DNA of 64,000 nucleotides from Micromonospora pallida. GTDB taxonomy: Bacteria > Actinomycetota > Actinomycetes > Mycobacteriales > Micromonosporaceae. The stretch spans positions 2,976,001 to 3,040,000 of the forward strand of contig NZ_FMHW01000002.1 of NCBI RefSeq assembly GCF_900090325.1, read 5' to 3'. Under the pieces are notes generated by a model that was not told where the DNA came from, made no database searches, and was given only the letters and a program-made list of their open reading frames with translations. The translations under genes were made by a program, and so were the position numbers. Below, piece after piece: positions 13,640 through 59,197 of the stretch (position 1 is its first letter; every line of letters starts with the position of its first letter).

Positions 13640-19146
<5,507 letters not shown>

Positions 19147-19147
<1 letters not shown>

Positions 19148-22100
19148 CAGGGCTTTTCCTCTTCCGCCGCGAGCAGCGCGGCGACCTCGGCTGCGGAGAG
19201 CTCGTCGACCTCGGCGGCGATCAGCGCCTCGATCTGGGTGGCCAGGTCGGCGACGACCGGGGCGCTGAACAGGGCCCGCATCGGCAGGTCCACGTCGACC
19301 TCGGCGCGGATCCGGGACATCGCCCGCATGCCGCGCAGCGAGTTGCCGCCGAGGGCGAAGAAGTCGTCGTACGCGCCGACCTTCTCCACCCCGAGGATGT
19401 CGGCGAAGACCTCCGCGACCAGCACCTCGGCGTCGGTGCGCGGGTCCACGTGGGACGGTTCGGCCGTCGGCGCCGCCGGGGCGGGCAGCGCGGCCCGGTC
19501 CAGCTTGCCGTTGGGGGTCAGCGGCAACGCGTCGAGGCGGACGAACGCCACCGGCACCAGGTGCACGGGAAGCTGCCGGGCCGCCTCGGCCGCCACGTCC
19601 GCCTCGGCGGCGGTGCCGACGAGGTACGCGACCAGGCTCGGCTCACCCGAGTCGGTGCGGACGGCGACCACGGCCTCGCGGACGCCCGGGTGGGCGAGCA
19701 GCGTCGACTCGATCTCGCCCAGCTCGATCCGCATGCCCCGCACCTTCACCTGGTGGTCGCGGCGGCCGAGGTACTCCAAAGTCCCGTCGGCCCGCCAGCG
19801 GGCCAGGTCGCCGGTGTGGTACATCCGCTCCCCCGGCGCCCCGTACGGGCAGGGCAGGAAGCGTTCGGCGGTCAGGCCCGGCCGACGTAGGTAGCCCCGG
19901 GCGAGCTGGACCCCGGCGACGTACAGCTCGCCGACCACGCCCGGCGGCACCGGGTTCAACGTCGCGTCGAGCAGGTAGGCGCGCATGTTCCAGGTGGGCC
20001 GGCCGATTGGCACCGGCCCGGCCGGCACCGACTCGCCAGGGGCGATCCGGGCGGCCACGCAGCCGACGGTCGCCTCGGTCGGGCCGTACTCGTTGATCAC
20101 GGCGACGCCCGGGTGGTCGGCCCGCCAGGCGGTGAGCTGCTCGCCGGTGAGCGCCTCGCCGCCGATGACCAGGTCGGTGGTGGGCGACAGCGCGGCGTCG
20201 AGCAGCGGCAGGTGGCTCGGGGTGACCTTGAGGAAGTCCGGCGGCCCGCCGGCCCGAGCGGCGGCCTCGTCGATCCCGGCCAGCCGGACCGTGCCGCCCG
20301 CGGTGAGCGGGCCGAGCAGGCCGGTGACGGTCAGGTCGAAGGAAACCGGCGAGTGCAGCAGCGCGGTGCCGGCCAGCCCCGGGTAGGTGGCCCGGGCCCA
20401 GGCCAGGTACGCGTGCGCCGCCCGGTGCTCCACCACGACGCCCTTGGGACGGCCGGTGGAGCCGGAGGTGTAGAGCACGTACGCCGGGTGGGCGGCCCGC
20501 AGCGGCGCGGTCCGCTCGGCGTCGGTCAGATCGGCACCGTCCCCGTCGACGGTCAGCGCCCCGTCGAGCACCAGCGCGCCGGACGGGACGAGTGCGGCGG
20601 TGTCGGCCGTGGCGAGCACCAGCGCCGGTGCCGCGTCCTCGAGCAGGTACGCGATCCGCCCGGCCGGGTACGCGGTGTCCACCGGCAGGTACGCCGCGCC
20701 GGACTTGAGCACGGCGAGGATCGCCACCAGCAGTTCCGCCGAGCGGGGCAGCGCCAGGGCGACCAGCTCCCCCGGCCCCGCGCCCCGGGACACCAGCACC
20801 CGGGCCAGGCGGTTGGCGCGGGCGTTCAGCTCGGCGTACGTCAGCCGGACGTCGTCGGCGACCAGGGCGGTGGCGTCGGGGGTGGCCGCCACCTGCCGCT
20901 CGATCTCGGCGACCAGGGTGGAGTCCGGGACGTCCCGGGCGGTGTCGTTCCAGGTCCGCAGCACCCGCTCCCGCTCGGCGTCGTCGAGCAGCGGCAGCGC
21001 GGAGACCCGCTGCCCCGGGTCGGTCACGGCGGCGTCGAGCAGCCGGACGTAGCGGGCGACCACCACCTCGGCGGTGGCCCGGTCGAACAGCGCGGTCCGG
21101 TAGAGCAGCCGGCTGGTCGTGGTGGTGATGTCGAAGGCCAGGTCGTCCTTGGTGGTGCCGAGGGCGACCGGGTCCAGACCGGAGTCCGGGATGAAGTTGA
21201 ACGCGGTCTGGAAGAGCGGCTGCACCGACGGGTCGCGCTGCGGGGCGACCGCCTCGACGATCCGCTGGAACGGCGTGCCACCGTGCTCCATCGCGTCGAC
21301 CAGGGCGTCCCGGGTGCGGGCGACCAGTTCGGCGAAGGTCGGGTCACCGGCCAGGTCGCAGCGCAGCGCCACCGGGTTGACGAACATGCCGATCAGCGGG
21401 ACCAGTTCGGGGTTGTCCCGGCCGGCGGTGGAGACCCCGACGACCAGGTCCCGGTCGCCGGAGATCCGGTGCAGCAGGGCGGTGAAGGCGGCCAGCAGCA
21501 CCATGAACGGGGTGGCCGTCGACCCGGTGGCCAGCCCGCCGACCCGGTCGAGCAGACCGTCGGGCAGGGTGAAGTGCAGCTCGTCCCCGGCATAGCCGAG
21601 TTCCGCGGGTCGGGGCCGGTCCAGCGGCAGGGTGGTCGCCGCCGGGGCACCGGCCAGCCGCTCCCGCCAGAAGCCGAGCTGCCGGTCCAGTTCCGCGCCG
21701 ACCAGTTGGTCACGCTGCCAGACCGCGAAGTCGGCGTACTGGATGGGCAGTTCGGGCAGGTCGAGGCGGGTGCCGCCGAGCGCGGCCCGGGCCAGCGCGG
21801 CCAACTCCTCGGTGAGGATCACCGCGGACCGGCTGTCGAAGACCACGTGGTGCACCACGCCCTGGAGGACCACCCGGTCGTCGGCCATCCGGACCAGCCG
21901 GGCCCGCCAGAGCGGCCCGGCGTCCATCGGGACCGGGGTGCGGGCCAGCTCGGCGAGCAGTTCGTCGAAGCGGGGCCGCCGCTGCGGCTCCGGCAGGTCG
22001 CGCAGGTCGATCACCTCGAGGTCGACCTGCTCGGCAGGGCGGACGACCTGGGTCAGCGTCCCGTCGTCGACCCGCAGGTGGGTGCGGAGCGCCTCGTGGC

Positions 22101-22272
22101 GGGCGACCACCGCGCCGAACACCGCGCTGGCCTGCTCGGCGGTCAGCCCTTCGGGGAAGGTCCACAGCAGGGAGACGTTGTAGACCGGAGAGGCGGCGTC
22201 GAGCTGGTTGGCGATCCAGACGCGCTCCTGCGCGTACGACGCCGGAAAGGTCCACTCCTTCACGTCGGTCAT
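19147..22272 (-). CDS. NRPS elongation module C-A-T (Asn-like code)
   Basis: The 1041-residue protein has a condensation domain (about 1-440), adenylation domain (about 465-950) and carrier domain with GGNSL (Ser near 977). The C-domain motif is HHVVFDS: catalytic His and Asp are kept but the final Gly is Ser. Code residues read from the A4-A5 region are DLTKVGEVGK, closest to asparagine codes and next to aspartate. It starts inside the MbtH stop (ATGA), so MbtH and this module are probably translated together. The dioxygenase two genes upstream may hydroxylate its residue. Residue identity is a prediction. Confidence 0.9.
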
Positions 22273-28901: not shown

Positions 28902-31900
28902 CTATTCCGCAGCGCCGCCGGGGCGGCGAGGTGGGGTACGACGGGTACGACTGCGTCGGGCGGCCGCGCGGAGCGCGGCCCGGGCCAACTCCGGCCGGTC
29001 GACGGCGCCGTCGAGGTGGGCGGCGAGCGCCCTCACGGTGGGATGGCGGAACAGGTCGAGCAGCGCCAGGGACCGCCCGGTGGCGGCGGTCAGCCGGGCG
29101 TGCACGGCGGTCAGGGCCAGCGAGTGTCCACCGATGTCGAAGAAGTTGTCGGTCACCCCGACCCGGTCCCGGTCCAGCACCTCCCGCCAGATCCCGGCGA
29201 TCAGCTCCTCGGTGTCGGTCAGCGCGTCCGGCCCGGCGGGCAGCAGGCCGCGCGGCGCGTCGCCGGCCGCGACGGTCATCGCGCCGAGCCGGGCCACCCG
29301 TACGGTCGGCCGGGGCAGCTCGACGGCGACCGTGTCGACCGGCTCGTGCGGGGCGGCGGCCAGCACGCCGACCAGCGCGGCCAGGTCGGCCAGGAGCGCG
29401 TCGATCCGCTCCGCGTCGAACAGGTCCGGGTTGTGCACCACCTCGACGCCGAACCGGCCGTCGTGCTCCACCACGTAGACAGTGATGTCGAACGGGGAGC
29501 CGGGCTTGTCCACCCGCACCGGTTCGCCAATCAGTCCGGCGAGCGCCAGCCGGGGCGGGGCGAAGTTGAGCACGTTGAACAGCACCTGCACCAGCGGGGC
29601 GTGGGAGGTGTTCCGGCCGATGCCGAGCGCCTCCACGATCTTCTGCAGCGGCGCGCCCGAGTGGGCGGTGGCTTCGTGCAGCTCGGTCGCGCAGCGGTCG
29701 ACCAGCTCGGCGAAGCCCACTCCGCCGCCGGTGCGGACCCGGAGCGGGACGGTGTCGATGAGGAAACCGATCACGTCGTCGAAGGCGGCCAGCCGCCGAT
29801 CGGCGACCACCGCGCCGAGGACGTGGTCGTCGCCACCGGTGAGCCGGCCGGCCAGCACGCCGAACCCGGCCAGCAGCACCGCCGCGCAGGTGGTGCCCCG
29901 GTCGGCGGCGAGCGTCCGGATCGCCCGGTCCGCCTCGGCGGAGAGCGTCACCGTGGCCTCCGCGCCCAGGTAGGTCTGCACCGCCGGGCGGGGCCGGTCC
30001 CGGGGCAGCTCCAGCACGGTCGGCGCGCCCCGCAGGTGCGTCGTCCACCAAGCCACGTCGGCCGGGCCGCGCCGCCGGTCCCGCTCGGCCTGCCAGACCG
30101 CGTAGTCGGCATACGAGACGGCCAGCGGCGGCAGGCTCGGCGTCCGGCCGGCGACCGCCTGGGCGTACGCGGCGGCGAGGTCGTCGTAGAGGACCCCCTC
30201 GGACCAGCCGTCGAAGACCGCGTGGTGCAGGGTGATCGCCACCACGTGCTCCTGCTCGCCGAGCCGGTACACGGTGACCTGCCAGGACGGGCCGGTGGCC
30301 AGGTCGAAGGAGTGCCCGGCACCGACGGTCAGCATGCCCCGCAGCTCCGCCTCGGCGTCGGCGCTGCCGGTCAGGTCGACCACCGGCACGGCCACGTCGG
30401 TCGGTTCGGCGCACACCGCGTACGGCACCCCGGCGGTCTGCAGGATCCGCCAGCGCAGCACGTCGTGCCGCTCGGCGACGGCCCGCAGCGCCGCTCCCAG
30501 GGCCGGTACGTCCAGCGGGCCACGCAGCCGGTGCGCCATCGCGATGTTGTACGGGGCACTGGACGAGGCGATCTGGTCGACGAACCAGAGCCGGCGCTGC
30601 GGCGCGGAGAGGGTCGGCGGGTTGCCGGTGGTCAACCCGTCCGCCTCGGCGCGGGCGGCGGCGCGGACCGTGTCGACCAGCCCGGCGAAGGTGCGGGCGG
30701 CGACCACGTCCCGGGCGTCGACCTGCCGGTCCAGTTCGGCGCGGAGCGCGGCGACCAGGCGCATCGCGGCGACGGAGTTGCCACCGGCGGCGAGGAAGTC
30801 GGTGTCCGGGGCGGGGGCGGCACCGAGCAGTCGGGTCCAGAGCCGGGCCACCGCCGTCTCGACCGGATCACCGGTGGCGGCCACCTCGGCGGCCGGGTGA
30901 GGGCGGGTCGCGGCGGCCTGTTCCCGCAGGGCGGCCCGGTCGAGCTTGCCGGTACGCGGGTCGACCGGCAGCGCGGCCAGGCGCAGCAGCCGGGCCGGTT
31001 GCATGGCCGGGGTGAGCCGGTCGGCGGCCCAGTCCCGGATCTCCTCGTCGCCGGGGGCGTCGGCGGGGGTGAGGAAGGCGACCAGTTCGGTGCCGGACGG
31101 GCCGTCGACGGCCTCCACCGCCACCCGGTCGACCGCCGGGTGGTCGGCGAGCACCGCCTCGACCTCACCCAGCTCGATGCGCTGCCCCCGGATCTTCACC
31201 TGGCGGTCGATCCGTCCCAGGTAGACGAGCCGGCCGTCCGGGCCCTGCCGGACCAGGTCGCCGGTGCGGTAGAGCCGCTCACCGGGGAGGCCGGAGAACG
31301 GGTCGGGGACGAAGGCCGCGCCGGTCAGCGCCGGCCGGTCGAGGTAGCCGTCGGCCAGGCCGGGGCCGCCGACGAGCAGTTCCCCGCTCTGCCCCGGCGC
31401 GACCGGACGCAGGTCGGCGTCGACGACGTACACCCGGTGGTTGGGCAGCGGCAGACCGATGGGCACCGGGTCGGTCTCGTCGCCGGTGAGGTCGCCGGCC
31501 ACCACCGCGACGGTCGCCTCGGTCGGGCCGTAGGCGTTGACGAACCGCCGGCCGGGGGCCCAGCGGGCGGCGAGTTCCGCCGGGACGGCCTCGGCCCCGC
31601 AGAGCACCGTCCGCCAGCCGGGCAGGGCGGCCGGGTCGAGCAGGGCGAGCACGGTCGGGGTGAGCAGTCCCCAGGTCACGTCGTGCGCGGCGGCGAACCG
31701 CTGCAACCGGACCGGGTCGGCCCGGTCGTCCGCGCCGACCAGTTGCACCGCGCCGCCGTGGGCCAGCGGCACGAACAGGTCGATGACGGCGGCGTCGAAG
31801 CTGAGCGAGGCGCTGGCCAGACTCCGGGTGTCGGCGTCGACGCCGGTGCGGGCCGCCCAGCTCGTGACGAACTCGACCAGACCCCGGTGGGTGATCCGAA

Positions 31901-32417
31901 CGCCCTTGGGACGCCCGGTGGAGCCGGAGGTGAACAGCACGTACGCGAGGTCGCCGGGACGGGCCGGGCAGGGCGTCAGCGGGGCCGGGCCGGGCAGCCC
32001 GACGGTCCGTACCCCGGCGACGTCGCCGAACTCCGCCTCGGCGGCGTCGCCGACCACGATCCGCACGTCGGCGTCCCGGACGATCTCCCGCAGCCGCCCG
32101 CGCGGACCGCCCGGGTCCAGCGGTACGTACGCCCCGCCGGCCAGCAGCACGCCGAGCACGGTGACCACCAGGTCGGGCCGGCGGGTGGCGCACACCCCGA
32201 CCGGGGTGCCCGGGACGACGCCCTCCTCCCGCAGCGCGGTGGCCACTCCGGCGGCCCGCTCCACCAGGTCGCGGTAGCTGAGCCGGTCGTCCCACTGGCG
32301 TACCGCCGTGGCGTCGGGGGTCCGGGCGGCCTGTGCCCGGACCAGGTCGGCGAGGGTTGTGTCCGGCCAGGGCAGCTCGGCACCGTGGGCGGCGGCCGGG
32401 TACGGGGTGGGGCTCAT
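28902..32417 (-). CDS. NRPS A-T-C-T protein
   Basis: The 1171-residue protein has an A domain (about 20-510; [22 protein letters not shown] and terminal Lys region present), T1 (GGNS, Ser548), a C domain (about 600-1030; HHAVFDG near 730) and T2 (GGHSL near 1095). The A-domain code I read is DAILLGAVAK, which I cannot match to a known amino acid. T2 has no A domain of its own and must be loaded in trans or receive the condensed chain. It overlaps the TE-LanB gene by 4 bases (ATGA) and is followed by the PKS. Confidence 0.9.
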   Translation of the reverse strand: MSPTPYPAAAHGAELPWPDTTLADLVRAQAARTPDATAVRQWDDRLSYRDLVERAAGVATALREEGVVPGTPVGVCATRRPDLVVTVLGVLLAGGAYVPLDPGGPRGRLREIVRDADVRIVVGDAAEAEFGDVAGVRTVGLPGPAPLTPCPARPGDLAYVLFTSGSTGRPKGVRITHRGLVEFVTSWAARTGVDADTRSLASASLSFDAAVIDLFVPLAHGGAVQLVGADDRADPVRLQRFAAAHDVTWGLLTPTVLALLDPAALPGWRTVLCGAEAVPAELAARWAPGRRFVNAYGPTEATVAVVAGDLTGDETDPVPIGLPLPNHRVYVVDADLRPVAPGQSGELLVGGPGLADGYLDRPALTGAAFVPDPFSGLPGERLYRTGDLVRQGPDGRLVYLGRIDRQVKIRGQRIELGEVEAVLADHPAVDRVAVEAVDGPSGTELVAFLTPADAPGDEEIRDWAADRLTPAMQPARLLRLAALPVDPRTGKLDRAALREQAAATRPHPAAEVAATGDPVETAVARLWTRLLGAAPAPDTDFLAAGGNSVAAMRLVAALRAELDRQVDARDVVAARTFAGLVDTVRAAARAEADGLTTGNPPTLSAPQRRLWFVDQIASSSAPYNIAMAHRLRGPLDVPALGAALRAVAERHDVLRWRILQTAGVPYAVCAEPTDVAVPVVDLTGSADAEAELRGMLTVGAGHSFDLATGPSWQVTVYRLGEQEHVVAITLHHAVFDGWSEGVLYDDLAAAYAQAVAGRTPSLPPLAVSYADYAVWQAERDRRRGPADVAWWTTHLRGAPTVLELPRDRPRPAVQTYLGAEATVTLSAEADRAIRTLAADRGTTCAAVLLAGFGVLAGRLTGGDDHVLGAVVADRRLAAFDDVIGFLIDTVPLRVRTGGGVGFAELVDRCATELHEATAHSGAPLQKIVEALGIGRNTSHAPLVQVLFNVLNFAPPRLALAGLIGEPVRVDKPGSPFDITVYVVEHDGRFGVEVVHNPDLFDAERIDALLADLAALVGVLAAAPHEPVDTVAVELPRPTVRVARLGAMTVAAGDAPRGLLPAGPDALTDTEELIAGIWREVLDRDRVGVTDNFFDIGGHSLALTAVHARLTAATGRSLALLDLFRHPTVRALAAHLDGAVDRPELARAALRAAARRSRTRRTPPRRPGGAAE

Positions 32418-35400
32418 CGGCGCGCTCCGGATCCGGTGGCGACGGCTTCGCCGTCGACGATGTGCAGCCGCAGCTCGCTGAAGTACCGCCGGCCGGCTTG
32501 GTCGGGCACCCAGGCCTGGTCGGGAGTGGGCAGCATCTCGCTGAGCGTCACCGACACCGCGTCACCGCCCGCGCCCCGGGCGGTACGCAGCATCGAACAG
32601 AACGCCGAGGCGTAGAACGGGCTGCTCAGGTCGAGGAAGCAGGGCTTGGTCTCGGTGCCGAGCTTCACGTACACCTGCTCGGGCAGGCCCAGTTCGCGCC
32701 GCCACCGCCGGACGGCGAGGAACCGCTCCCGTTCGCCGGTGACGTCGGCCAGCCCGGTCTCGCCGAGCGTGGTCCGCCAGGTCTCCCGGGCCACCACCAG
32801 CTTGTCCAGGGTGATCCGGGGCGTGTGCGGGGCGGCGGCGACCAGCTTGAAGCCGTCTACCGCGTGCATGGCGAGCGGGCCGGCGAAGATCTCGTCGAGG
32901 GTCCACGTCCGCCCGTCCCGGGCGACGGCGACCAGTTCCCCGTCGCGGTCGGCGACGGTGAGGTCCACGGTGGGCAGCACCCGGTCCGGGTCGGCCCCGG
33001 CGGCGGGGGCGAAGGCGAGCTGCCGGTCGGTCGGGCCGACCAGGCTCTCCGCGACCCGGCTGGTGCGGCGCGGCCACTCGTCCGGCACCAGCAGCCGGAT
33101 CCGGCCGCCACCCAGGTCCTCGTCGAGGGCGGCGCGCAGCCGCGCCACGTCCGGGTGGGACGGGGTGAACACCTCGCAGTCGAACGACGCCCAGGCGGCG
33201 TGCAGCTCGCCGAGGACCACGGTGTACTCGCCCCGGGCCAGCGCCTCGGCGTCCCGCGCGCAGATTTGCAGGTCGGGGCTGTGCAGCCGGCCGTTGGCCC
33301 AGGTCGGCGGGACGGCCGGGAAGACCTCGGCGACCCGGTCGGCGATCTCGTCGGTCCGGACGTCGACCCGGTTGGCGTCGGCCGGCACCGGGTCCAACCC
33401 GAACAGTCCGGCCCAGCGCTCGGCGAAGGCGGCGGCCACCGCGTCGACCGGCCGGTCGCCGGTGCCCCAGAACAGTCCCTGCGCGAGGAACCACAGGTCG
33501 GCCAGGGACACCTCACCGCCGCGCGCGTCGGCGCGCAGTTCCTCGTACAGCTCGCGGAACGCGTCGGCGTAGGCGCGGCGCAGCGCCTCGACCAGCCACC
33601 GGGCGGCCTGGAGCAGCACCGCCATCGGCGCGGCGATCTCCCGCAGCAGCGGCCCGCCGACCACGGCGTCGAGGTCCCGGCTGGTGTCCTCGTAGCAGAG
33701 GGTGCGGCCGGCGTACATCTGCCCGTCGCGGCGGCGGGGCGCGGCGCCGGTCAGTTCGGTGAAGAGGGCGTCCAGGTCGGCCAGGGCGACCCGGAGCCGG
33801 TCCGGCTCACCGGCCGCCGCGGCGACGGCCTCCCGGGCGGCGCGCAGCCGGTCCAGTCCGTCCCGGGCGTGGGTACGGGCCGGCTCGTCGCCGATCGCGT
33901 CGATCCGTTCGGCGAGCACCCGCTCGGCGGCCGGGCTCACCGGCAGCAGCGCGTCCCAGGTGATCAGTTCCCGGTCGACGAAGCGCTCCAGCAGGGCGTA
34001 CCCGTCGTCCGGGCGACGCAGCCCGAGGGTCGGGTCGGCGACCACCTGCGCGGCCGGCCGGCGACCGTCGCAGGCGGCCAGCAGCGCCGCCTCGACGGCG
34101 GAGAGCTCCAGCGGCGGGCGGCCCGGCCGGCGCACCGTCCGGCCGTCCAGGCCCAGGTGGGGGGCGAGCATCGGCGGCCACCAGCGCCGTACGGCCGGGT
34201 CCCGGCCGAGCGCGTCGGCGTACGCGGCCATCGCCCAGGACTCGAAGGCCACCCAGCGGTCACGGGTCAGCCGCTCCCCCGGCCGCGCGGTCAGCGGCGT
34301 CGTGGCGTCCGGGTCGACGGTCACCCAGCAGCTCGGCCCGAAGAAGCCGACCGTCTCGTTCTTGCCGCAGTAGCGCTGCCAGTAGCGCAGCAGGGCCTTC
34401 TCCCGGTCCCGGCGGCGCACGTTGCGGGGGGCGTCCGGCCCGGCGGCGACCAGCCCGTCGAGGGCGGTGAGCACGTTCGGGTTCTGCCAGGTGACCGCCT
34501 CGCGGAGCAGCGGGTCGGCGGCGATCTGCCGCAGCGTCTCGCCACCGGCCCGCAGCGCCTCGGTGAACGCCACGTCGAAGACCTCGGCGGGGCCGCCGTC
34601 GAGCAGGTCGTCGGCGGCGGCAGCGGCCTTCGGGGCGGCCAGCGCGGTCAGCCCGTCGGCCGGGAACCCGGTGGTCCGCAGCAGCGCGTCCCGCCAGACC
34701 GACCAGTGCGTGTCGCCCAGCGGCACCCGGTGCCCGCCCGGCCCGGACGACGGACCCCACGCTCCGATGCCGGCGGGCGCGGCCACACCGGCGACGGACG
34801 CGGCCGCGCCCGGCACCGTCGACCCGGCGGCGGTGGTGGCCGGGGCCGGCGGGGTGACCGCCGCGCGCAGGTCGGCCCGGATCACCGCCAATACGTCGGC
34901 GAGGCCGTCGTGCAGGAAGAAGTGTCCGCCGTCGATGTCGTGCAGGGTGAAGCCGGCCGCGGTGTGCCGCTCCCACGCCGCGCTGTGCGCGCGGGTCACC
35001 GCCAGGTCGGTACGGCCGCTGAACACCACGATCGGCACCGGCAGCGGCTCCTCGGGGGTGTACCGGTAGCTGTCCACCCGACCGAAGTCGGCCCGCAGCA
35101 GGGGCAGCAGCAACTCGACCAGCTCGCGGTGTTCGAGGATCTCGGCGGGCAGGCCGCCGCCGGCCCGCAGCCGCCGCAGCAGTTCCTCGTCGTCGACCCG
35201 GGAGAGCCCGTCGAAGTGGCTGACGTCGGTGACGTGCGGGGCGCGGGCCCCGCCGACGTACAGCCGGACCGGCAGGGGCCGGCCGGTGCGACGCAGCTCC
35301 CGCACCACGTCGAAGCCGAGCCGCCCGCCCATCGAGTGGCCGTAGATGGCGTACGGGCGGTCGGCCTGCCCGGCGATGGCGTCGGTGACCTCCGCGACGG

Positions 35401-35584
35401 TGAAGTCCGGGTCCTCGGCGATCCGTACCTCCCGGCCGGGCAGCTGCACCGCCTGCACCTCGACGTCCTCGCCGATGGCGTCCCGCCACCGGCGGAACGC
35501 ACTGGCCCCGGCTCCGGCGTAGGGCAGGCAGAACAGCTGCACCGGCGCTTCGGGACGACGTCCGGTGGAGGAGAACCAGTTCAC
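32414..35584 (-). CDS. Type II thioesterase fused to a LanB-like (lantibiotic dehydratase N-terminal) domain
   Basis: The 1056-residue protein has two parts. Residues 1-245 are a type II thioesterase: LPYAGAG, GHSMGG with Ser84, Asp in SGRTDLA, His in GGHFF. After an Ala/Pro/Gly linker, about 275-1056 match the N-terminal domain of class I lantibiotic dehydratases: DPLLREAVTWQNP near 370, GKNETVGFFGPSCW near 405 (where LanB has RPTPFGLF), and near the end PRITLDKLVVARETW, KPCFLDLSSP and EMLPTPDQAW. The SpaB_C elimination domain is absent. LanB-family enzymes use aminoacyl-tRNA, so a tRNA-dependent step on carrier-bound or released chains is inferred. The GTG start lies in the upstream stop (GTGA). 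No precursor peptide or LanC is nearby. Confidence 0.85.
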   Translation of the reverse strand: MNWFSSTGRRPEAPVQLFCLPYAGAGASAFRRWRDAIGEDVEVQAVQLPGREVRIAEDPDFTVAEVTDAIAGQADRPYAIYGHSMGGRLGFDVVRELRRTGRPLPVRLYVGGARAPHVTDVSHFDGLSRVDDEELLRRLRAGGGLPAEILEHRELVELLLPLLRADFGRVDSYRYTPEEPLPVPIVVFSGRTDLAVTRAHSAAWERHTAAGFTLHDIDGGHFFLHDGLADVLAVIRADLRAAVTPPAPATTAAGSTVPGAAASVAGVAAPAGIGAWGPSSGPGGHRVPLGDTHWSVWRDALLRTTGFPADGLTALAAPKAAAAADDLLDGGPAEVFDVAFTEALRAGGETLRQIAADPLLREAVTWQNPNVLTALDGLVAAGPDAPRNVRRRDREKALLRYWQRYCGKNETVGFFGPSCWVTVDPDATTPLTARPGERLTRDRWVAFESWAMAAYADALGRDPAVRRWWPPMLAPHLGLDGRTVRRPGRPPLELSAVEAALLAACDGRRPAAQVVADPTLGLRRPDDGYALLERFVDRELITWDALLPVSPAAERVLAERIDAIGDEPARTHARDGLDRLRAAREAVAAAAGEPDRLRVALADLDALFTELTGAAPRRRDGQMYAGRTLCYEDTSRDLDAVVGGPLLREIAAPMAVLLQAARWLVEALRRAYADAFRELYEELRADARGGEVSLADLWFLAQGLFWGTGDRPVDAVAAAFAERWAGLFGLDPVPADANRVDVRTDEIADRVAEVFPAVPPTWANGRLHSPDLQICARDAEALARGEYTVVLGELHAAWASFDCEVFTPSHPDVARLRAALDEDLGGGRIRLLVPDEWPRRTSRVAESLVGPTDRQLAFAPAAGADPDRVLPTVDLTVADRDGELVAVARDGRTWTLDEIFAGPLAMHAVDGFKLVAAAPHTPRITLDKLVVARETWRTTLGETGLADVTGERERFLAVRRWRRELGLPEQVYVKLGTETKPCFLDLSSPFYASAFCSMLRTARGAGGDAVSVTLSEMLPTPDQAWVPDQAGRRYFSELRLHIVDGEAVATGSGARR

Positions 35585-38500
35585 CGCTGGCCTTTCTGAG
35601 GGGGTTCGATCCAGTACCGCCGCCGCTGGAACGGGTAGGTGGGCAGGCCGACGCGCCGGCCGCCCCCGTCGGGGTGCAGCAGGGCCCAGTCGACGTCCCC
35701 GCCCGCCAGCCACCCGGCAGCCTGCTCCAGCAGGCCCGCCGGCGCCCCAGCCGCCCGGCCACCGGTGGCGAGCAGGTCGTCCAGCGCGGCCACCGCGCCG
35801 GCCGGGTCGGTCGCCGCGACCAGCGCCCGGCAGCCGAACGCCCGCCGGCCGGTGGCGAGGGTCCAGGCCACGTCCGCCAGCGGCGCGGTGGTGCCGGCCA
35901 GGTGTGCCCGCAGCCGGGTGACCACCGCCCGCAGCGCCTCGGGGGTACGCGCCGACAGCGGCAGCAGGTACGCCGCACCGGACGGCTCGGCCGCCGGCTC
36001 GGCCGGGGGCGGTTGTTCCACGACGACGTGCGCGTTGGTGCCGCCGAGGCCGAACGAGCTGACCCCGGCGACCCGGCGCGGACCCTCCGGCCAGTCCCGG
36101 GCCTTGGTCGGCACGTAGAACGGGCCGGCGGCCAGGTCGACCTCCGGGTGCGGGCGGGTGAAGTGCAGGTTCGGCGGGATGACCCCGTGCTGCACGGCGA
36201 GCACCGCCTTGATCAGCGAGGCGATGCCGGCCCCGGCGTCCAGGTGGCCGATGTTGGTCTTGACCGACCCGAGCGCGCAGCTCTCGGCGGGGGCCGCGCC
36301 GGAGTAGACCTCGTGCAGCGCGGCCACCTCGATGGCGTCGCCGAGCGGGGTGCCGCTGCCGTGGGCCTCGACGAGGCGGACCTCGCCGGGGTCGACCTCG
36401 GCGGCGGCGAGGGCGTTCGCCACGGCGGCGGCCTGCCCGGCCGGTCCGGGGACGGCGAATCCGGCTCGCTCCGCCCCGTCGTTGGTGACCGCCCAGCCGG
36501 GCAGGATCGCGTAGATCCGGTCCCCGTCGGCCTGCGCGTCGGCGAGCCGGCGCAGCACGACCACCCCGGCGCCGGAGCCGAACCCGGAGCCGGCGGCGGC
36601 CTCGTCGAAGGCCCGGCACCGGCCGTCCGGGGAGGCCAGCCCGCCCGGGGTGGCCCGGTAGCGCGGCCAGGTGACGTTGACGCCGCCGGCCAGGGCGATG
36701 TCGCACTGGTAGTCGGCGAGGCTCTGCGCGGCGAGGCAGACCGCCACCAGCGAACTGGAGCAGGCGCTCTGGGTGGCCACCGCCGGACCGGTCAACCCGA
36801 GCCGGTACGCGACCTGCCCAGGGAGGTGGTCGGTGAACTGCCGGCCGACCAGCCGGGCCTCCCAGTCGTCCGGGTCGACGTCACCGACCACGGCCGGGTT
36901 GTCCATCAGGTGGAAGAGGAAGTAGCGGTTCGCGGAGGTCGCCGCGTACACGCCGACCAGGCCGGGGAACCGCTCCGGGTCGCATCCGGCGTCCTCGAGG
37001 GCCTCCCAGGCGGTCTCCAGGAAGATCCGGTGCTGCGGGTCGGTGCGGGCCGCCTCGTCCGCGCCGAAGGAGAAGAAGTCGGCGTCGAACTCGGCCACCC
37101 CGGCGAGCCGCCCGGCGGCCTTCACGTGCCGGGGGTCCGCGCGCAGCCGGGGGCCGATGCCCAGGGCGGCCAGTTCGGCGTCGGTGTGGTCGTGGATGCC
37201 GTCCACCCCGGCGCAGAGGTTCCACCAGAAGGTGGCGACGTCCGGTGCGCCGGGGAACCGGCCGGCCAGGCCGACGACGGCGATCTCGTCGCCGGTGTGT
37301 TCCCGGTCGGAGACCGGCGGCGCGGGCGGCACGGGCAGGGCGGGAGCCGAGACTCCGGTGGCCGGGGCGTCCAGCAGCCGGGCCTGCGCCGCCACCGTGG
37401 GGTGCGCGAACAGGCGGGGCATGGGCAGTCGTACGCCGAACCGCTCGGCCAGCCGCTCCTGCACCAGGCCGAGCAGAAGGGACTGCCCGCCGAGGTCGAA
37501 GAAACTGTCGGTGCGGCCCACCGCGGACCGGCCGAGCACCGCGCACCAGATGTCGTGCACGGCCTGCTCGGTCGGGGTGGCCGGCTGCTCCCCCGTCGGT
37601 ACCAGTACTGGCGGCTCGGGCAGCGCGCGTTCGTCGACCTTGCCGGTGACGGTGAGCGGGAACGCGTCGACCACCACGACTGCCCGGGGCAGCGCGTACT
37701 CCGGCAGTCGCCGGGCCAGCGCCGCGCGCAGGGCCGCCGGGTCGAGCGGCCCGCCGGCCGGGACGGCGTACGCGAGCAGTTCGCCGTCGCGGGCGATGGC
37801 GCGGACGGCGGCGACGCCCGGCTGGTCGGCGAGGTGCGCCTCGACCTCGGTCAGCTCGACCCGGTGTCCGCGCACCTTGACCTGCCGGTCCAGCCGGCCG
37901 AGGCAGACCAGCTCTCCGCCGGGCAGCCGCTGGCCCAGGTCGCCGGTGCGGTACGTGGGCACCCCGTCCGGGTCGACGCCGAAGCGGTCGCTGTCGACGT
38001 TGAGGTAGCCGGGGGCCAGATAGGTGCTGCGGACCTCGATCTCGCCGTCGGCGGTGAGGTCGACGGCGTACCCGGGCAGGGCGTGGCCGATCGGCAGTGG
38101 ACCGCTGCGGGTGCCGTCCACCTCGGCCAGCGGGAGCGCGTACCGGGCGGCGAAGGTCAGTTCGGTGGCGCCGTAACCGTTGACCAGCACGCAGTCGGCG
38201 GCGAACCGGTCCCGGCCCCGGGCCGCGTCGGTCCAGGTGGCCTGCTCGCCGCCGAGCAGCACCACGCGCACGTGGTCGAGCCGGCGGTCGCCGAGGGTGT
38301 CCAACAGGAACCGGTAGACGGTGGGGGTGGAGTGATAGACGGTCACCCGGTGCCGGGCCAGTTCGTCGACGGCGTGGGCGAGCCCGTGCCGGCGCAGTTC
38401 GACCGGGACGACCGCCGCGCCGGTGAGCAGCGCCGGCCAGAGGTCCGGGATGGCGGCGTCGAAGCTGAACGAGGCGAGCAGGCTGAGCCGGTCGTCCGGG

Positions 38501-39123
38501 CCGATGGCGAGGGCGGCGATCTGGTTGTCCACCACGTGCCGCAGGTTGCGGTGGGTCTGGCCGACCGCCTTGGGCACCCCGGTCGACCCCGAGGTGAACA
38601 GCACGTACGCCACCGCGTCCGGGTCGACCGGTACGGGTGCCAGCGGCGCGGCGGCGGGTTCGTCGGTGACCACCACCCGCAGATCGGGGCAGTCGTCACT
38701 CAACCGACGCGCGAGCGGTTCTTGAGCGGCTCCGGTGAGGATGGTGCCGACGTCGGCGGCGGCGATCATGTGCCGCAGCCGGTCCTCGGGGAAACCCGGG
38801 TCCAGCGGCACGTACGCACAGCCGGCGGCGAGCGTGCCGAGCATGGCGGCGATGGTGGGCACGCCGTGCGCGGTGAGCAGGGCGACCCGGCTCCCGGCGG
38901 GGACCGCGGCGGCGGCGAGCAGCGCGGCGTACCCGCCGGCCAGGTCCCGCAGCTCCGCGTAGTGGACGGTCCGCTCGCCGAGCACGGCCGGTCGCTCGGG
39001 ATGCCGCGCCGCGCTGACGGTAAAGCGGTGCACGATCGTCGACTGTGGCATGTCAGTGCCCGACTGCCGTCCGTAGGCGGACATGCGCGCAGCGTCCGAC
39101 GCCTGCATCCACCCATCCCCCAA
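35581..39123 (-). CDS. Hybrid A-T-KS protein lacking its AT domain
   Basis: The 1180-residue first protein of the cluster has an A domain (about 30-505; LFTSGSTGVPKA, YGATE, YRTGD), a T domain (GGQSL, Ser548) and a KS (about 608-1035; SACSSS with Cys788, HGSGT, NIGHLDAG). The sequence then runs through the post-KS linker straight into a post-AT linker (PTYPFQRRRYW) with no acyltransferase between. There is no ACP. The A-domain code I read, DAPHLGGFAK, is unassigned. Several starts are possible (39123, 39108, 39084, 39051); family similarity begins near the 39051 ATG. Confidence 0.88.
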   Translation of the reverse strand: MGDGWMQASDAARMSAYGRQSGTDMPQSTIVHRFTVSAARHPERPAVLGERTVHYAELRDLAGGYAALLAAAAVPAGSRVALLTAHGVPTIAAMLGTLAAGCAYVPLDPGFPEDRLRHMIAAADVGTILTGAAQEPLARRLSDDCPDLRVVVTDEPAAAPLAPVPVDPDAVAYVLFTSGSTGVPKAVGQTHRNLRHVVDNQIAALAIGPDDRLSLLASFSFDAAIPDLWPALLTGAAVVPVELRRHGLAHAVDELARHRVTVYHSTPTVYRFLLDTLGDRRLDHVRVVLLGGEQATWTDAARGRDRFAADCVLVNGYGATELTFAARYALPLAEVDGTRSGPLPIGHALPGYAVDLTADGEIEVRSTYLAPGYLNVDSDRFGVDPDGVPTYRTGDLGQRLPGGELVCLGRLDRQVKVRGHRVELTEVEAHLADQPGVAAVRAIARDGELLAYAVPAGGPLDPAALRAALARRLPEYALPRAVVVVDAFPLTVTGKVDERALPEPPVLVPTGEQPATPTEQAVHDIWCAVLGRSAVGRTDSFFDLGGQSLLLGLVQERLAERFGVRLPMPRLFAHPTVAAQARLLDAPATGVSAPALPVPPAPPVSDREHTGDEIAVVGLAGRFPGAPDVATFWWNLCAGVDGIHDHTDAELAALGIGPRLRADPRHVKAAGRLAGVAEFDADFFSFGADEAARTDPQHRIFLETAWEALEDAGCDPERFPGLVGVYAATSANRYFLFHLMDNPAVVGDVDPDDWEARLVGRQFTDHLPGQVAYRLGLTGPAVATQSACSSSLVAVCLAAQSLADYQCDIALAGGVNVTWPRYRATPGGLASPDGRCRAFDEAAAGSGFGSGAGVVVLRRLADAQADGDRIYAILPGWAVTNDGAERAGFAVPGPAGQAAAVANALAAAEVDPGEVRLVEAHGSGTPLGDAIEVAALHEVYSGAAPAESCALGSVKTNIGHLDAGAGIASLIKAVLAVQHGVIPPNLHFTRPHPEVDLAAGPFYVPTKARDWPEGPRRVAGVSSFGLGGTNAHVVVEQPPPAEPAAEPSGAAYLLPLSARTPEALRAVVTRLRAHLAGTTAPLADVAWTLATGRRAFGCRALVAATDPAGAVAALDDLLATGGRAAGAPAGLLEQAAGWLAGGDVDWALLHPDGGGRRVGLPTYPFQRRRYWIEPPQKGQR

Positions 39124-43352: not shown

Positions 43353-44498
43353 TCAGGCCACCAGCGAAGGCTCGCGCACCACCGTCGGCTGGTCGTCCAC
43401 CGGGCCGGCGGCGGAGCGGTTCGGCAGGGACAGCCGGATCACCTTCCACCACGCCGAGGCCACCTGCTTCGGCAGCGATCCGGTGGTGTACGACAACCCG
43501 TACCGCCGGAAGACCTCGCGTACCTCCGGGGCGATCTCCCGGTAGCGGTTGCTGGGCAGGTCGGGGAAGAGGTGGTGCTCGATCTGGTGGGAGAGGTTGC
43601 CGGCCATCAGGTGCAGCAGCCGGCCACCGCTGATGTTGCCCGAGCCGAGCATTTGCCGCAGGTACCACTCCCCCTTCGTCTCCCCCTCGATGGAGGTCTT
43701 CTCGAAGGTCTCCACCCCGCTGGGGAAGTGCCCGCACATGATCACCGAGTGGCTCCACACGTTGCGGATCAGGTTCGCGGTGAAGGTGGCGGCCAGGGTG
43801 CTGAGGAAGGACGGCCCGGACAGCAGCGGGTGGAGGACATAGTCCTTGAGCACCTGGCGGCGGATCTTGCGCAGCACCGCCTTGGCGCGGCTCCGGAACA
43901 CCGGGTCCCGGGTGCTCTTCTCCTGGAGGTGACGGCCCAGCTCCAGGTCGTACGCGGCGATGCCGTACTCGAAGAAGCAGGCGTTGAGCAGGTTCCAGAA
44001 CGGCTGGCCCAGGTGCATCGGCTGCCAGGGCTGGTCCTCGTCGACCCGCATGATGCCGTAGCCGAGGTCGTTGTCCCGGCCGACGACGTTGGTGTACTTG
44101 TGGTGCAGCTCGTTGTGCGACTGCTTCCACTGCTCGGCCGGGGAGACGTGGTCCCATTCCCAGGTGGTCGAGTGGATCTTCGGGTCGCGCATCCAGTCCC
44201 ACTGGCCGTGCAGGACGTTGTGCCCGATCTCCATGTTCTCCAGGATCTTCGCCACCGCCAGGCCGGCGGTGCCGACCACCCAGGCGGGCGGAAAGAGCGA
44301 GAAGAGCAGTACGGCCCGGCTGCCCAGTTCCAGCTTGCGCTGGGTGCCGATGACCCGGCGGATGTACGCGGCGTCCCGCTCACCCCGGTTGGCCATGACC
44401 CGGTCCCGAATCGCGTCGAGCTCGGCGGCGAGCGCCTCGATGTCCGCCGGGGTGAGGTGGGCGATCGGATTGTGCGGCTTCTTCTGGATCACGGTCAT
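43353..44498 (-). CDS. DesA3-like membrane acyl-CoA desaturase
   Basis: The 381-residue protein has the three histidine boxes of membrane di-iron desaturases (GHNVLHGQWD, NELHHKYTN, HQIEHHLFP) and several hydrophobic segments. With the ferredoxin reductase encoded 17 bases upstream it matches the mycobacterial DesA3 (Rv3229c)/Rv3230c pair that converts stearoyl-CoA to oleoyl-CoA. It is likely under control of the divergent PucR-type regulator. Length is normal for the family. Confidence 0.9.
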   Translation of the reverse strand: MTVIQKKPHNPIAHLTPADIEALAAELDAIRDRVMANRGERDAAYIRRVIGTQRKLELGSRAVLLFSLFPPAWVVGTAGLAVAKILENMEIGHNVLHGQWDWMRDPKIHSTTWEWDHVSPAEQWKQSHNELHHKYTNVVGRDNDLGYGIMRVDEDQPWQPMHLGQPFWNLLNACFFEYGIAAYDLELGRHLQEKSTRDPVFRSRAKAVLRKIRRQVLKDYVLHPLLSGPSFLSTLAATFTANLIRNVWSHSVIMCGHFPSGVETFEKTSIEGETKGEWYLRQMLGSGNISGGRLLHLMAGNLSHQIEHHLFPDLPSNRYREIAPEVREVFRRYGLSYTTGSLPKQVASAWWKVIRLSLPNRSAAGPVDDQPTVVREPSLVA

Positions 44499-44515
44499 GC
44501 ACGCAACTCCCGTCG

Positions 44516-45607
44516 TCAGAGGTCGATGTCGCAGGGGCCGGCCGCCGCCGACACACAGGTCTGGACGAGCACGCCGTCGCCGGGCAGTGCGGTGGTCAGT
44601 TCCCCGGTACGCAGGTCACGAACCGCCCCCTGGCGCAACGGCAGGACGCAGCCGAAGCAGATGCCCATCCGGCAGCCGGAGGGCATCAGCACCCCGGCCT
44701 CCTCGCCCGCGTCGAGCAGCGCCCGGGATCCGTCGGCCTGGACGGTGACGCCGCTGCGGGTGAAGGTGACCGGCCCGCCCTCGCCGGCGGTGATCACGGT
44801 CGGGCGGAACCGCTCGGTGTGCAGCCGGTCGGCGGCGCCGGCGTCGGCCCAGTGCCGCTCGACCGCGTCGAGCAGCCCGACCGGGCCGCAGGCCCAGGTC
44901 TGCCGGTCGAGGTGGTCCGGCACGAGGTCGGCGAGTTCGGTCACGTCGAGCTGCCCGTCGCGGTCGGTGTGCCGCTCGACCAGGCGCAGGACGCCCTGCG
45001 CGGCGAGATCGCGCAGCTCGGCACCGAAGATCACGTCGGTCGGGGTGGGCGCGGAGTGCACCAGGACGACGTCGCTGTCGGCCAGGGCGCCGCAGCGCAG
45101 CATCCCCATGACCGGGGTGACGCCGCTGCCGGCGGTGACGAACAGGACCCGGGGCGGTGCCGGCCGGGGCAGGACGAAGTCCCCCTGCGCCTGGTCGAGC
45201 TGGACGATGGTGCCGGGCCGGACCCGCCGGACGAGGTGGTTGCTGACCACGCCGTCCGGGATCGCCTTGACGGTGATCGTGACGGGGGCGTTGCCCCGCC
45301 CGGGGGGTGCGGTGAGCGAGTACGCCCGCCACTGGCGCACCCCGTCGACGTCCACGCCGAGCCGGACGTACTGGCCGGGCAGGTGACCACGCCAGCCGCG
45401 TCCTGGACGGATCACGACGGTCGCCGCGTCGGGGGTCTCCGGCCGGACGTCGAGGATCCGACCACGCAGGTCGGCCCCGGCGCGCAACGGTGCGACGAGG
45501 TCGAGGTAGTCGTCGGGCAGGAGCGGGGTGGTGACCGCGCCGGCGAGCCGCAGGAGCCGGTCCCGGAGGGGCATCCGGGTGGACCGACGCGAAACGGTGG
45601 TGGCCAT
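44516..45607 (-). CDS. Ferredoxin reductase with C-terminal 2Fe-2S domain (desaturase electron donor)
   Basis: The 363-residue protein has an FAD-binding barrel (QYVRLGVDVDGVRQWRAYSL), an NAD(P) domain (FVTAGSGVTPVMGML) and a C-terminal plant-type 2Fe-2S centre (GCRMGICFGC ... QTC). This is the Rv3230c architecture, which feeds electrons to DesA3. It is first in an operon with the desaturase. The ATG at 45607 lies 85 bases from the divergent regulator start. Confidence 0.9.
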   Translation of the reverse strand: MATTVSRRSTRMPLRDRLLRLAGAVTTPLLPDDYLDLVAPLRAGADLRGRILDVRPETPDAATVVIRPGRGWRGHLPGQYVRLGVDVDGVRQWRAYSLTAPPGRGNAPVTITVKAIPDGVVSNHLVRRVRPGTIVQLDQAQGDFVLPRPAPPRVLFVTAGSGVTPVMGMLRCGALADSDVVLVHSAPTPTDVIFGAELRDLAAQGVLRLVERHTDRDGQLDVTELADLVPDHLDRQTWACGPVGLLDAVERHWADAGAADRLHTERFRPTVITAGEGGPVTFTRSGVTVQADGSRALLDAGEEAGVLMPSGCRMGICFGCVLPLRQGAVRDLRTGELTTALPGDGVLVQTCVSAAAGPCDIDL

Positions 45608-45631
45608 GTCACCATGGTGACCGCACCATTC

Positions 45632-45679
45632 GTACAAAATCTTGGCTCGGCAGGGTAAAAAGGGCCTGCCTTCTTGTAC
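45632..45679. promoter_or_regulatory. Nested inverted repeats in the divergent desaturase/PucR promoter
   Basis: GTACAA (45632-45637) pairs with TTGTAC (45674-45679), and inside these GGCAGG (45649-45654) pairs with CCTGCC (45665-45670). They lie in the 85-base space between the reductase/desaturase operon and its divergent regulator. This is a likely operator region. Confidence 0.5.
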
Positions 45680-45692
45680 CGAGGGAACAAAC

Positions 45693-46937
45693 ATGTCAGA
45701 GACCTTCCGTTCCACCCGCGAGGCGGCCCGGCTGGCCCTGGACGAGCGGGTGGCCCGGGAGTTGCAGGACCGGCTACCGCTGCTGGCCGAACGAACGGTG
45801 ACCGCGATCACCGGCGAGGTGCCCAGCTACTCCGGCACGCTCACCGGCCAGATGCGCGACAAGATCTCCAACGCCGTGCAGATCGCCCTGGGCACCTTCC
45901 TCAACCTGCTCGCCCACCCCCAGGGCAGCGACCCGAGCACACCGCTGGCCCCGGCGCTGGAGGCGGCGTACGCCCTGGGCAGCGGCGAGGCGCGCGCCGG
46001 CCGCAGCATGGACGCGCTGCTGGCCGCGTACCGGATCGGGGCCCGGGTCGCCTGGCGGGAGATGTCCACCACCACGGTCCGCAGCGGGCTGCCCGCCGCG
46101 ACGGTGGCGGAGTTCGCCGAACTGCTCTTCGCCTACATCGACGAACTCTCCGCCGCCAGCGTGGCCGGGCACGCCGACGAGCTGGCCAGCGCCGGGCGGG
46201 CCCGACGGCGCAACCTGGAGCGGCTGGCCCAGCACCTGCTCACCGGTGAGCCCGAGGATGTGCTGCTGGCCAGCGCCGAACGGGCGGACTGGCCGCCGCC
46301 GCAGACGCTCACCGCCGTCCTGGTTCCCCGGGCGAACCTGCGCGTGCCGCTGGCCCTGCTCAGTTCGCAGACCCTCGAGGCCGGTGAAGACCTGCCCGGA
46401 GCGGAGGCGGGCGCGGAGACCGCCGTGCTGCTCGTCCCGGACATGCACGGTGCCCGGCGCCGGCAGTTGGCCCGGGTACTGCACGGACGCCGGGCGGTGC
46501 TGGGGCCGTCCCGCCCCTGGCAGCGGGTCGCCGTGTCGTTCCGGCGGGCCTGCCGCCTGCTGGCCCTGGGCGTCGACCCGCCGACGGACGGCGCGCCGCT
46601 GGACACCGAGCACCACCTGGCCGAGCTGGTGCTCGGCGCGGACCCGGAGGGGCTGGCCGACCTGCGCACGCGGGCGCTCGAGCCGCTGGCGTCACTGCCG
46701 CCGGCCACCGCACACCGGCTCGCCGAGACGCTGCGGTCGTGGCTACTGCGGCACGGCCGACGCGACGACGTCGCGGCCGATCTCTTCGTCCATCCGCAGA
46801 CCGTCCGGTACCGGATGGGCCAGCTCCGGGAGTTGTACGGGGATCGGCTCACCGACCCGGCCTCGGTGCTGGAGCTGACCCTGGCCCTGGCCTTCTGGCA
46901 GCCCACGTTGACGGTCGACACCGTCGAGGCGGGCTGA
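45693..46937 (+). CDS. PucR/CdaR-type helix-turn-helix regulator
   Basis: The 414-residue protein has an N-terminal helical sensor-like region (RsbR/GGDEF-like linker), a middle variable domain and a C-terminal PucR HTH_30 domain, visible as LRSWLLRHGRRDDVAADLF followed by HPQTVRYRMGQLRELYG. This arrangement matches regulators next to DesA3-type desaturase genes in actinobacteria. GAGGGAAC precedes the ATG. It probably controls the divergent desaturase operon. Confidence 0.85.
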   Translation: MSETFRSTREAARLALDERVARELQDRLPLLAERTVTAITGEVPSYSGTLTGQMRDKISNAVQIALGTFLNLLAHPQGSDPSTPLAPALEAAYALGSGEARAGRSMDALLAAYRIGARVAWREMSTTTVRSGLPAATVAEFAELLFAYIDELSAASVAGHADELASAGRARRRNLERLAQHLLTGEPEDVLLASAERADWPPPQTLTAVLVPRANLRVPLALLSSQTLEAGEDLPGAEAGAETAVLLVPDMHGARRRQLARVLHGRRAVLGPSRPWQRVAVSFRRACRLLALGVDPPTDGAPLDTEHHLAELVLGADPEGLADLRTRALEPLASLPPATAHRLAETLRSWLLRHGRRDDVAADLFVHPQTVRYRMGQLRELYGDRLTDPASVLELTLALAFWQPTLTVDTVEAG

Positions 46938-50667: not shown

Positions 50668-51243
50668 CTACAGCAGGTGCGGCGTGCGGCACATCCGGGC
50701 TCGGACGTGTGGCTCGATCACGGCGGGCGAGGGCAGGATCCCGCCCGCGGCGGCGTCGACACCGTCGAAACTGACCAGCGGCAGACCGAGCCGGACAAGA
50801 ATCCGATAGGTCAGGTGGGCCCGGTGGGACAGTGACGTGTTCGCCGTCGACCGCAGGTAGATCAGGGCACCCGAATCAACTCCTGCGAGGGTCGCCAACG
50901 ATTCGGTCAGCTTGCGCCGACAGTCGCACAGTCCGCTGCGGAACACGTCACCGGCGACGCATTCGTTGTGGACGAGGACTGCGGGAACGGGGCCAGCGGT
51001 CTCCGGGCCGGAGGCGATTCCCCGGGTCAGGACGAGATGTTCCGCCGACTCGCCCGGGAACTGGAAGACGAACGCGTCCACGGGCCCGTGCACGGTCCGG
51101 ACGCGCACCGGACCGGCCACGGTGGCCACTGTCGGCGGCACCTCGGAGCGGGGCAACAGGGCGAGCCCACGATTCTGGGCGAGCGCGAGCAGGTCGGCGT
51201 CGGTGACCGGTGGACACATGGCCGGCGGGTTGGCGCTTGTCAT
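50668..51243 (-). CDS. Divergent GTP cyclohydrolase II (RibA)-like protein
   Basis: The 191-residue protein has the RibA zinc-site pattern: VHNECVAGDVFRSGLCDC with three spaced cysteines, and GALIYLR in the position of the RibA LLYHRQ strand. The adjacent conserved EGRxIGL motif is replaced by STANTSLSH and the C-terminal half differs, so ordinary GTP cyclohydrolase II activity is doubtful. It closes a flavin-related gene block (two flavin reductases, an LLM monooxygenase), which suggests a role in flavin supply or a specialised cyclohydrolase-type reaction. Confidence 0.68.
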   Translation of the reverse strand: MTSANPPAMCPPVTDADLLALAQNRGLALLPRSEVPPTVATVAGPVRVRTVHGPVDAFVFQFPGESAEHLVLTRGIASGPETAGPVPAVLVHNECVAGDVFRSGLCDCRRKLTESLATLAGVDSGALIYLRSTANTSLSHRAHLTYRILVRLGLPLVSFDGVDAAAGGILPSPAVIEPHVRARMCRTPHLL

Positions 51244-51253
51244 CTGATCTTCC

Positions 51254-51781: not shown

Positions 51782-51875
51782 GTCTCACTCCCAGGAACAC
51801 TCTCGTTGTCGACACTCCCCCGCAGGGAAGGTGGCGTGTCTGTCGGTGGTCACCTGTTGCCGGGCAGGTCGACGC

Positions 51876-53311: not shown

Positions 53312-53352
53312 CGTCCGTTACCGTCCTTCCCGTTTGGTCGCCATGTGCCCGC

Positions 53353-54270: not shown

Positions 54271-54366
54271 GGTGCGACCTTCTTTCGAGGGGCGCCGGGC
54301 GCCTGGCGCGACGGCCGGCGGCTGCGGCGACCGAGGCGCGTTCGAGCGCCCGACGCCCCTGGCGGC

Positions 54367-55968: not shown

Positions 55969-56007
55969 GACGCTCCTAGTTCAACTGGGGGATGTGCTAC
56001 GGGGGGA

Positions 56008-57660: not shown

Positions 57661-57720
57661 GACAAAACCTTAAGGCCCACTGATTCCACCCCTGTTACGT
57701 GCAGAACTCCCGAAGATTTC

Positions 57721-57732
57721 ATATCTAGATAT
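57721..57732. promoter_or_regulatory. 12-bp palindrome in the ABC-transporter promoter region
   Basis: ATATCTAGATAT is a perfect palindrome in an AT-rich pocket about 60 bases upstream of the ATPase gene. On the minus strand it sits between TCGACA and TATGAA elements with 16-base spacing, so a repressor bound here could block a promoter. A related imperfect site lies at 63450-63465. Confidence 0.5.
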
Positions 57733-59183: not shown

Positions 59184-59197
59184 GTGTCCACTCCCGG

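Follow-up and report, generated by a model that had tools for sequence, protein, structure and literature searches.

The 64,000-nucleotide stretch of the Micromonospora pallida genome analysed here (contig NZ_FMHW01000002.1, positions 2,976,001 to 3,040,000; the window) carries eight minus-strand genes of an assembly line with both non-ribosomal peptide synthetase (NRPS) and polyketide synthase (PKS) modules. The second gene encodes a protein in which a thioesterase (TE) is joined to a LanB-like domain, here called TE-LanB (Table 1). The gaps between the eight genes are -4, -4, 8, 17, -1, -4 and -1 bp, and we infer from this spacing that they form an operon. The TE-LanB open reading frame (ORF) overlaps the upstream A-T-KS gene in a GTGA and the downstream A-T-C-T gene in an ATGA, as described in the original prediction, which had been made without database searches. 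Because no gap exceeds 17 bp, a precursor peptide gene does not fit between the operon genes, and the only small ORF in the operon is the MbtH-like gene. The absence of a precursor, also part of the original prediction, thus holds between these genes; the search was limited to the operon and none was made outside it. A chance fusion, a frameshift or an assembly error is ruled out, the fusion being conserved across relatives.

Table 1. Features of the assembly-line operon and of the TE-LanB protein, in window coordinates
Feature	Coordinates	Strand	Basis or remark
A-T-KS protein, first operon ORF, A code DAPHLGGFA	35581..39123	(-)	start TTG uncertain
TE-LanB fusion protein, 1056 aa	32414..35584	(-)	uninterrupted frame, GTG start
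Type II thioesterase domain, residues 16-237	34874..35539	(-)	PF00975; RifR match (3fla) 2.1e-40
Linker, Pro/Ala/Gly-rich, residues 241-283	34736..34864	(-)	sequence
LanB/PEARL-type domain, residues 284-1046	32447..34735	(-)	PF04738; fold match; SnaE homology
Y401-x-x-R404, like tRNA 3'-end contacts Y205/R208 of BhaBC-Trp in pattern	34373..34384	(-)	invariant 33/33
KNETVGFFGP, residues 408-417, equivalent of LanB R-x-TPFGLF region	34334..34363	(-)	alignment
RRE/PqqD-like subdomain, residues about 469-546	33947..34180	(-)	
D771, candidate Mg/ATP acid	33272..33274	(-)	invariant 33/33; aligned comparison LanBs not Asp
E793, candidate Mg/ATP acid	33206..33208	(-)	invariant 33/33; aligned comparison LanBs not Glu
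E1037-L-R1039, candidate equivalent of TglB E801/R803	32468..32476	(-)	invariant 33/33
A-T-C-T protein, A code DAILLGAVA, C motif LHHAVFDG	28902..32417	(-)	
PKS module KS-AT-KR-DH-ACP, 1823 aa	23422..28893	(-)	
TauD-family dioxygenase, 314 aa	22460..23404	(-)	PF02668
MbtH-like protein, 63 aa	22269..22460	(-)	PF03621, E 9.1e-21
C-A-T module, A code DLTKVGEVG (taken as Asn)	19147..22272	(-)	
C-A-T-TE-MFS protein, 1835 aa, A code DVWHISLID (taken as Ser)	13640..19147	(-)	

A Pfam scan of TE-LanB bears out the proposed fusion, with matches to Thioesterase at residues 16-237 (E 8.5e-34) and to Lant_dehydr_N at residues 356-797 (E 2.1e-31), the latter covering profile positions 1-429 of 649 only. 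In all 23 aligned TE-LanB fusions, S84 (in GHSMGG), D193 and H221 are invariant, and we take them to be the Ser-Asp-His catalytic triad. By its sequence, the N-terminal domain is a RifR-like type II TE with an intact triad; it shares domain, motif and triad with these enzymes, which normally stand alone, whereas in the window the TE is fused to a probable ligase. Around the linker, residues 245-284 are predicted to be disordered, with pLDDT <50 in a full-length model whose overall quality (pLDDT 72.4, pTM 0.54) is too poor to locate one active site with respect to the other. The C-terminal part, for which a comparison with NisB and MibB structures had been suggested, matches the fold of TbtB, MadB, MibB, NisB and GodF, and for TbtB, NisB and MibB the match spans about 640-670 residues; it is modelled as a complete LanB fold of the glutamylation type. 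Purifying selection acts on each of the two domains (Ka/Ks 0.26-0.54, six pairs).

The nearest characterised relative of the LanB domain is SnaE, described by Yu and van der Donk as a 'lantibiotic dehydratase' of an NRPS/PKS cluster in the threopeptin pathway of Stackebrandtia nassauensis (PMC10769383, PMC11212132). Heterologous expression with gene omission showed that SnaE is required for the addition of Thr to the carboxylate that a ureido-forming C domain (UreaC) leaves free (PMC10769383). About two thousand NRPS/PKS clusters are reported to encode SnaE-like proteins, some of them fused to TE domains (PMC10769383, PMC11212132). As the SnaE sequence we took the 845-aa LanB of genome G194, recognised by its neighbours (gene order A-T-C-A-T with EHHLVHDG, KS-AT-ACP, TE, 845-aa LanB). 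The window LanB domain matches it with 406 bits over query residues 10-769, and at 35% identity in an alignment (A1) of 33 LanB-type domains picked from fetched loci, SnaE included; phmmer found no match to SnaE among PDB sequences. Most of the 33 domains come from NRPS/PKS clusters, those of G008, G133c (two) and G151 (two) having weak NRPS-type neighbours only. SnaE and the window LanB share full-length homology, an NRPS/PKS cluster with no carrier peptide gene reported, the same invariant residues and a KN(E/D)T(V/I)GFFGP core. SnaE differs in that it is not fused to a TE (the sna cluster has a separate one), in the modules and product of its cluster, and in that its free carboxylate is supplied by the action of a UreaC domain (EHHLVHDG), which is not present in the window cluster.

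Residues invariant in 33/33 domains of A1 are R303, W366-Q367, Y401, R404, G413, F415-G416-P417, D771, V790-L-G-E793, H795, R843, R923, R933, D985, E1016, E1037 and R1039; K408 is conserved in 32/33. The R-x-TPFG core of class I LanB dehydratases is not present in the domain. In its place, K408-N-E-T-V-G-F-F-G-P aligns against R-A-T-P-Y-G-L-F-A of a lantibiotic LanB (KNDTIGFFGP in SnaE), which confirms the altered core noticed earlier. In the PEARLs BhaBC-Trp and TglB, an E-x-R pair together with acidic residues acts in ATP/carboxylate activation, and Y205 and R208 of BhaBC-Trp contact the 3' end of the tRNA (PMC11962472). In TglB, E801, R803 and E542 are the residues for phosphorylating the carboxylate with ATP. 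Classical PEARLs (TglB, AmmB, BhaBC) are, like the window LanB, related to LanB and without an elimination domain, and they share the candidate E-x-R and Y-x-x-R residues with it, by pattern only; they differ in acting on a ribosomal scaffold peptide, none of which can be encoded between the window operon genes. The PEARL equivalence of E-x-R, D771 and E793 is likewise one of pattern and position. An equivalence of K408 with BhaBC R208 was dropped, as the alignment with lantibiotic LanBs puts R404 there.

Two glutamylating enzymes are altered at these positions. The thiopeptide-type glutamylation enzyme of the same genome (L062), which adjoins YcaO, nitroreductase and PF14028 genes, has E-L-T in place of E-x-R and non-acidic residues at the D771 and E793 positions. 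TbtB, aligned via this enzyme, has E-F-L and no acids there (one row in the wrong frame, L107_G213, was left out of the comparison alignment). Because the candidate ATP-site residues are invariant in the 33 relatives and altered in the two glutamylating enzymes, the LanB domain is most likely an ATP- and aminoacyl-tRNA-dependent amide ligase.

TbtB, NisB and MibB share the fold of the window LanB and differ from it by glutamylation for dehydration and by a partner elimination domain. A true dehydratase is ruled out at this locus, since PF14028 (elimination, SpaB_C-type) is matched neither in the TE-LanB protein nor near the cluster, the nearest copy in the genome lying about 2 Mb away, in line with the lack of a SpaB_C domain stated in the original prediction. 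We consider it improbable that the domain is nevertheless a true glutamylation domain, by which the Ser of the last module would be esterified with Glu from tRNA and converted to dehydroalanine after elimination elsewhere: the LanB fold and the Ser-type A domain of the terminal module would suit such a role, yet the cluster has no elimination domain in it or nearby, the ATP-site candidates are conserved here, and SnaE is needed for an amide. Still less probably, the domain has no catalytic role and serves as a docking scaffold for carrier proteins; the retention of an RRE-like subdomain in an operon without room for a precursor gene is compatible with this, whereas the invariance of catalytic-type residues and the purifying selection speak against it. 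No LanC family was found among the Pfam-scanned window proteins, which do not comprise every ORF, and no genome-wide LanC search was made. No tRNA gene was found within the window.

The fusion is widespread among relatives of M. pallida. At least 734 homologues of TE-LanB were found at E<=1e-3 among 8000 candidates scored, and precomputed Pfam annotation gives a TE domain to 114 of 120 homologues among the matches listed. A genome search for such fusions, as proposed earlier, lists a full-length match in 56 of the 151 Micromonospora genomes and some match at E<=1e-30 in 137; four further genomes listed by their LanB part only (G149, G141, G091, G066) also encode TE and LanB in a single frame. 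A sample of 350 genomes of the family, from 44 genera, gave matches to the LanB domain at E<=1e-20 in 146 genomes, which belong to 28 of these genera. Besides its own genus (g1), one-frame TE-LanB occurs in g9 (G158), g12 (G198), g17 (G166), g23 (G172), g29 (G329), g36 (G185) and g40 (G210), so that the fusion is present in many Micromonospora genomes and extends to seven or more further genera of the family. The TE is split between frames in G217, TE and LanB are separate adjacent ORFs in G237, and LanBs without a TE have the same neighbours in G199, G245, G267 and G273 (genus g16) and in G191 (g42). TE-LanB was not found outside the family in a sample of 396 genomes of the phylum; two of these gave matches at E<=1e-60, the window's own genome and one with partial LanB matches only. 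A plasmid search for relatives returned 15 records (14 Streptomyces and one Kitasatospora), with no identified PEARL among them. In a tree of 66 LanBs, in which G172 is labelled unfused despite having TE and LanB in one frame and from which one short G091 fragment was left out, the TE-fused members do not form one clade; the tree is compatible with either a single or a repeated fusion. The M. pallida genome also encodes a C-A-T protein fused to a LanB domain (2140 aa; L061:7928-14350), with a separate LanB further along. This is the thiolation-fused type mentioned in PMC11212132.

The A-T-C-T protein is tightly linked to the LanB. In the annotated fused loci, the LanB has an A-T-C-T or A-T-C-A-T protein as a direct neighbour, the fetched stretch ending inside the A-T-C-T-type partner in G066, G091, G141 and G149. 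For the C-T half of the window A-T-C-T protein, at least 100 homologues at >=46% identity are listed from the 350 family genomes, not counting a second piece of the G352 gene, and 93 of the 100 have a listed LanB no more than 12 kb away. Of the remaining seven, G273 and G154 do have a LanB, and G124 and G152 are cut off by contig ends; the last three, G202, G222 (second cluster) and G259, combine TE, A-T-C-A*-T protein and PKS without LanB. In the LanB-less clusters L157, L158 and L161, TE and A-T-C-A*-T accompany a KS-AT-KR-DH-ACP module, and the second A domain is divergent, with the code DPRHAGLQA in the related G210. Among 80 C domains from the loci, the 30 from A-T-C-T-type proteins beside LanBs form one clade (support 1.0). 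The UreaC motif EHHXXHDG is found in none of the 30 and in none of the window C domains, whereas SnaA carries it; nine of the 80 domains, none among the 30, fall outside the motif pattern used. Chain reversal of the UreaC type is therefore ruled out, and without UreaC the free carboxylate must arise otherwise.

Taken with the SnaE homology, we consider it probable that TE-LanB is a release-and-extend enzyme. The N-terminal type II TE would hydrolyse a carrier-bound thioester; the LanB domain, a ligase of the SnaE/PEARL kind, would phosphorylate the free carboxylate of the nonribosomal chain with ATP and join the activated carboxylate to the amine of an aminoacyl-tRNA. The tRNA would then be hydrolysed off, and the chain would have gained one proteinogenic residue encoded by no adenylation domain. 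Here the ligase activity, the donated amino acid and the TE origin of the carboxylate are what we infer. One point weighs slightly against this proposal: use of ATP and Thr-tRNA by SnaE itself was inferred by its authors from PEARL homology (PMC10769383, PMC11212132).

The carboxylate would most simply be freed by the fused TE, the terminal TE or a side chain being other candidate sources. A PEARL-like ligase could instead act on a carboxylate not made by the fused TE (that of the final peptide acid or of a side chain), with the TE only proofreading mis-primed carriers. We give this a smaller but real chance. The terminal C-A-T-TE protein can release a free acid, TE-less LanBs occur in the same gene context, and the TE of the sna cluster is a separate protein, but in several branches TE and LanB are either fused or adjacent, which suggests that the two are coupled. 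The occurrence of relatives without a TE in the same context, and of clusters that have a TE but no LanB, speaks for two separable functions.

In close relatives, at 70-74% identity, the same operon is present and TE-LanB is often followed directly by a second LanB that stands alone. A second LanB lies within 3 kb in at least 47 of the 63 close hits listed in the family sample, a lower bound, as two candidates per genome were scored and the genus search adds others (for example G092, G057 and G063). A single copy is found in the window and in G133, G100, G143, G018, G116 and G020. The LanB copy number thus varies while the remaining assembly line stays. In G091 (L143:8460-9044) the second LanB is reduced to fragments, apparently a loss in progress. 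More speculatively, and we would sooner doubt it than rely on it, TE-LanB could be a self-contained hydrolyse-and-religate module that works without ureido reversal, the number of tandem LanBs setting the number of tRNA-derived residues. If so, the LanB copies (two in many relatives, one in the window) would act as an evolutionary dial on the length of a nonribosomal peptide.

Orphan clusters of the same layout have been published. The pks/nrps-3 clusters of M. okii TP-A0468 and strain TP-A0316 are described as A/T-KS, A/T-C/T, KS/AT/KR/DH/ACP, C/Aasn/T and C/Aser/T-TE, with the predicted product x-pk-x-y-pk-asn-ser (PMC8698034), and for pks/nrps-3 of strain DSW705 the prediction is X-X-?-C2-Asn-Ser (PMC5075396). 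The module order of the first two and the predictions agree with the window operon. The tables of both papers count PKS and NRPS genes only, their pks/nrps-3 descriptions do not name a TE-LanB gene, and 'LanB' and 'lantibiotic' have no occurrences in the main text of PMC8698034. A structure predicted from the modules of an NRPS/PKS cluster would lack any residue added from tRNA.

The interpretation offered in the original prediction, an unexplored aminoacyl-tRNA-dependent reaction on nonribosomal chains, is partly supported: the SnaE homology favours its direction, whereas "unexplored" does not stand, as SnaE has been published. The reaction class is so far reported for one related cluster and the TE fusion was noted there in one clause; a search of the literature, which reached few subscription papers, found no follow-up work on TE-LanB fusions. 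New here are the evidence from conserved residues, the breadth and structure of the distribution, the LanBs in tandem, the tight association with A-T-C-T proteins and the lack of UreaC. A widespread orphan Micromonospora cluster encodes such an enzyme fused to a TE but not the published route to its free-carboxylate substrate, and the origin of that carboxylate is a directly testable question in a cultivable genus. The enzyme might also serve, as one protein, to couple small acids to a residue from aminoacyl-tRNA.

Elsewhere in the operon, the DAPHLGGFA code of the A-T-KS protein was matched to no substrate. We presume that DLTKVGEVG specifies Asn and DVWHISLID Ser, and these readings agree with the published orphan-cluster tables. 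The start of the C-A-T gene is better placed at 22272, because the MbtH-like gene lies directly ahead. The TauD-family dioxygenase is possibly an asparagine hydroxylase; it adjoins the Asn-type module, suggesting beta-hydroxy-Asn. The domain order KS-AT-KR-DH-ACP is unusual and is found in many LanB-linked clusters. The terminal NRPS protein carries an MFS exporter fused at its C-terminus, an arrangement that recurs in relatives and gives an assembly line with a built-in pump. Outside the operon, a fatty acid desaturase adjoins a ferredoxin-reductase-like protein (43353-45811), perhaps as a redox pair. A separate block at 50668-63334 encodes a GTP-cyclohydrolase II-like protein, an FMN reductase, a dipeptide-type ABC transporter, a luciferase-like monooxygenase, a D-glutamate cyclase-like protein and an M20 peptidase.
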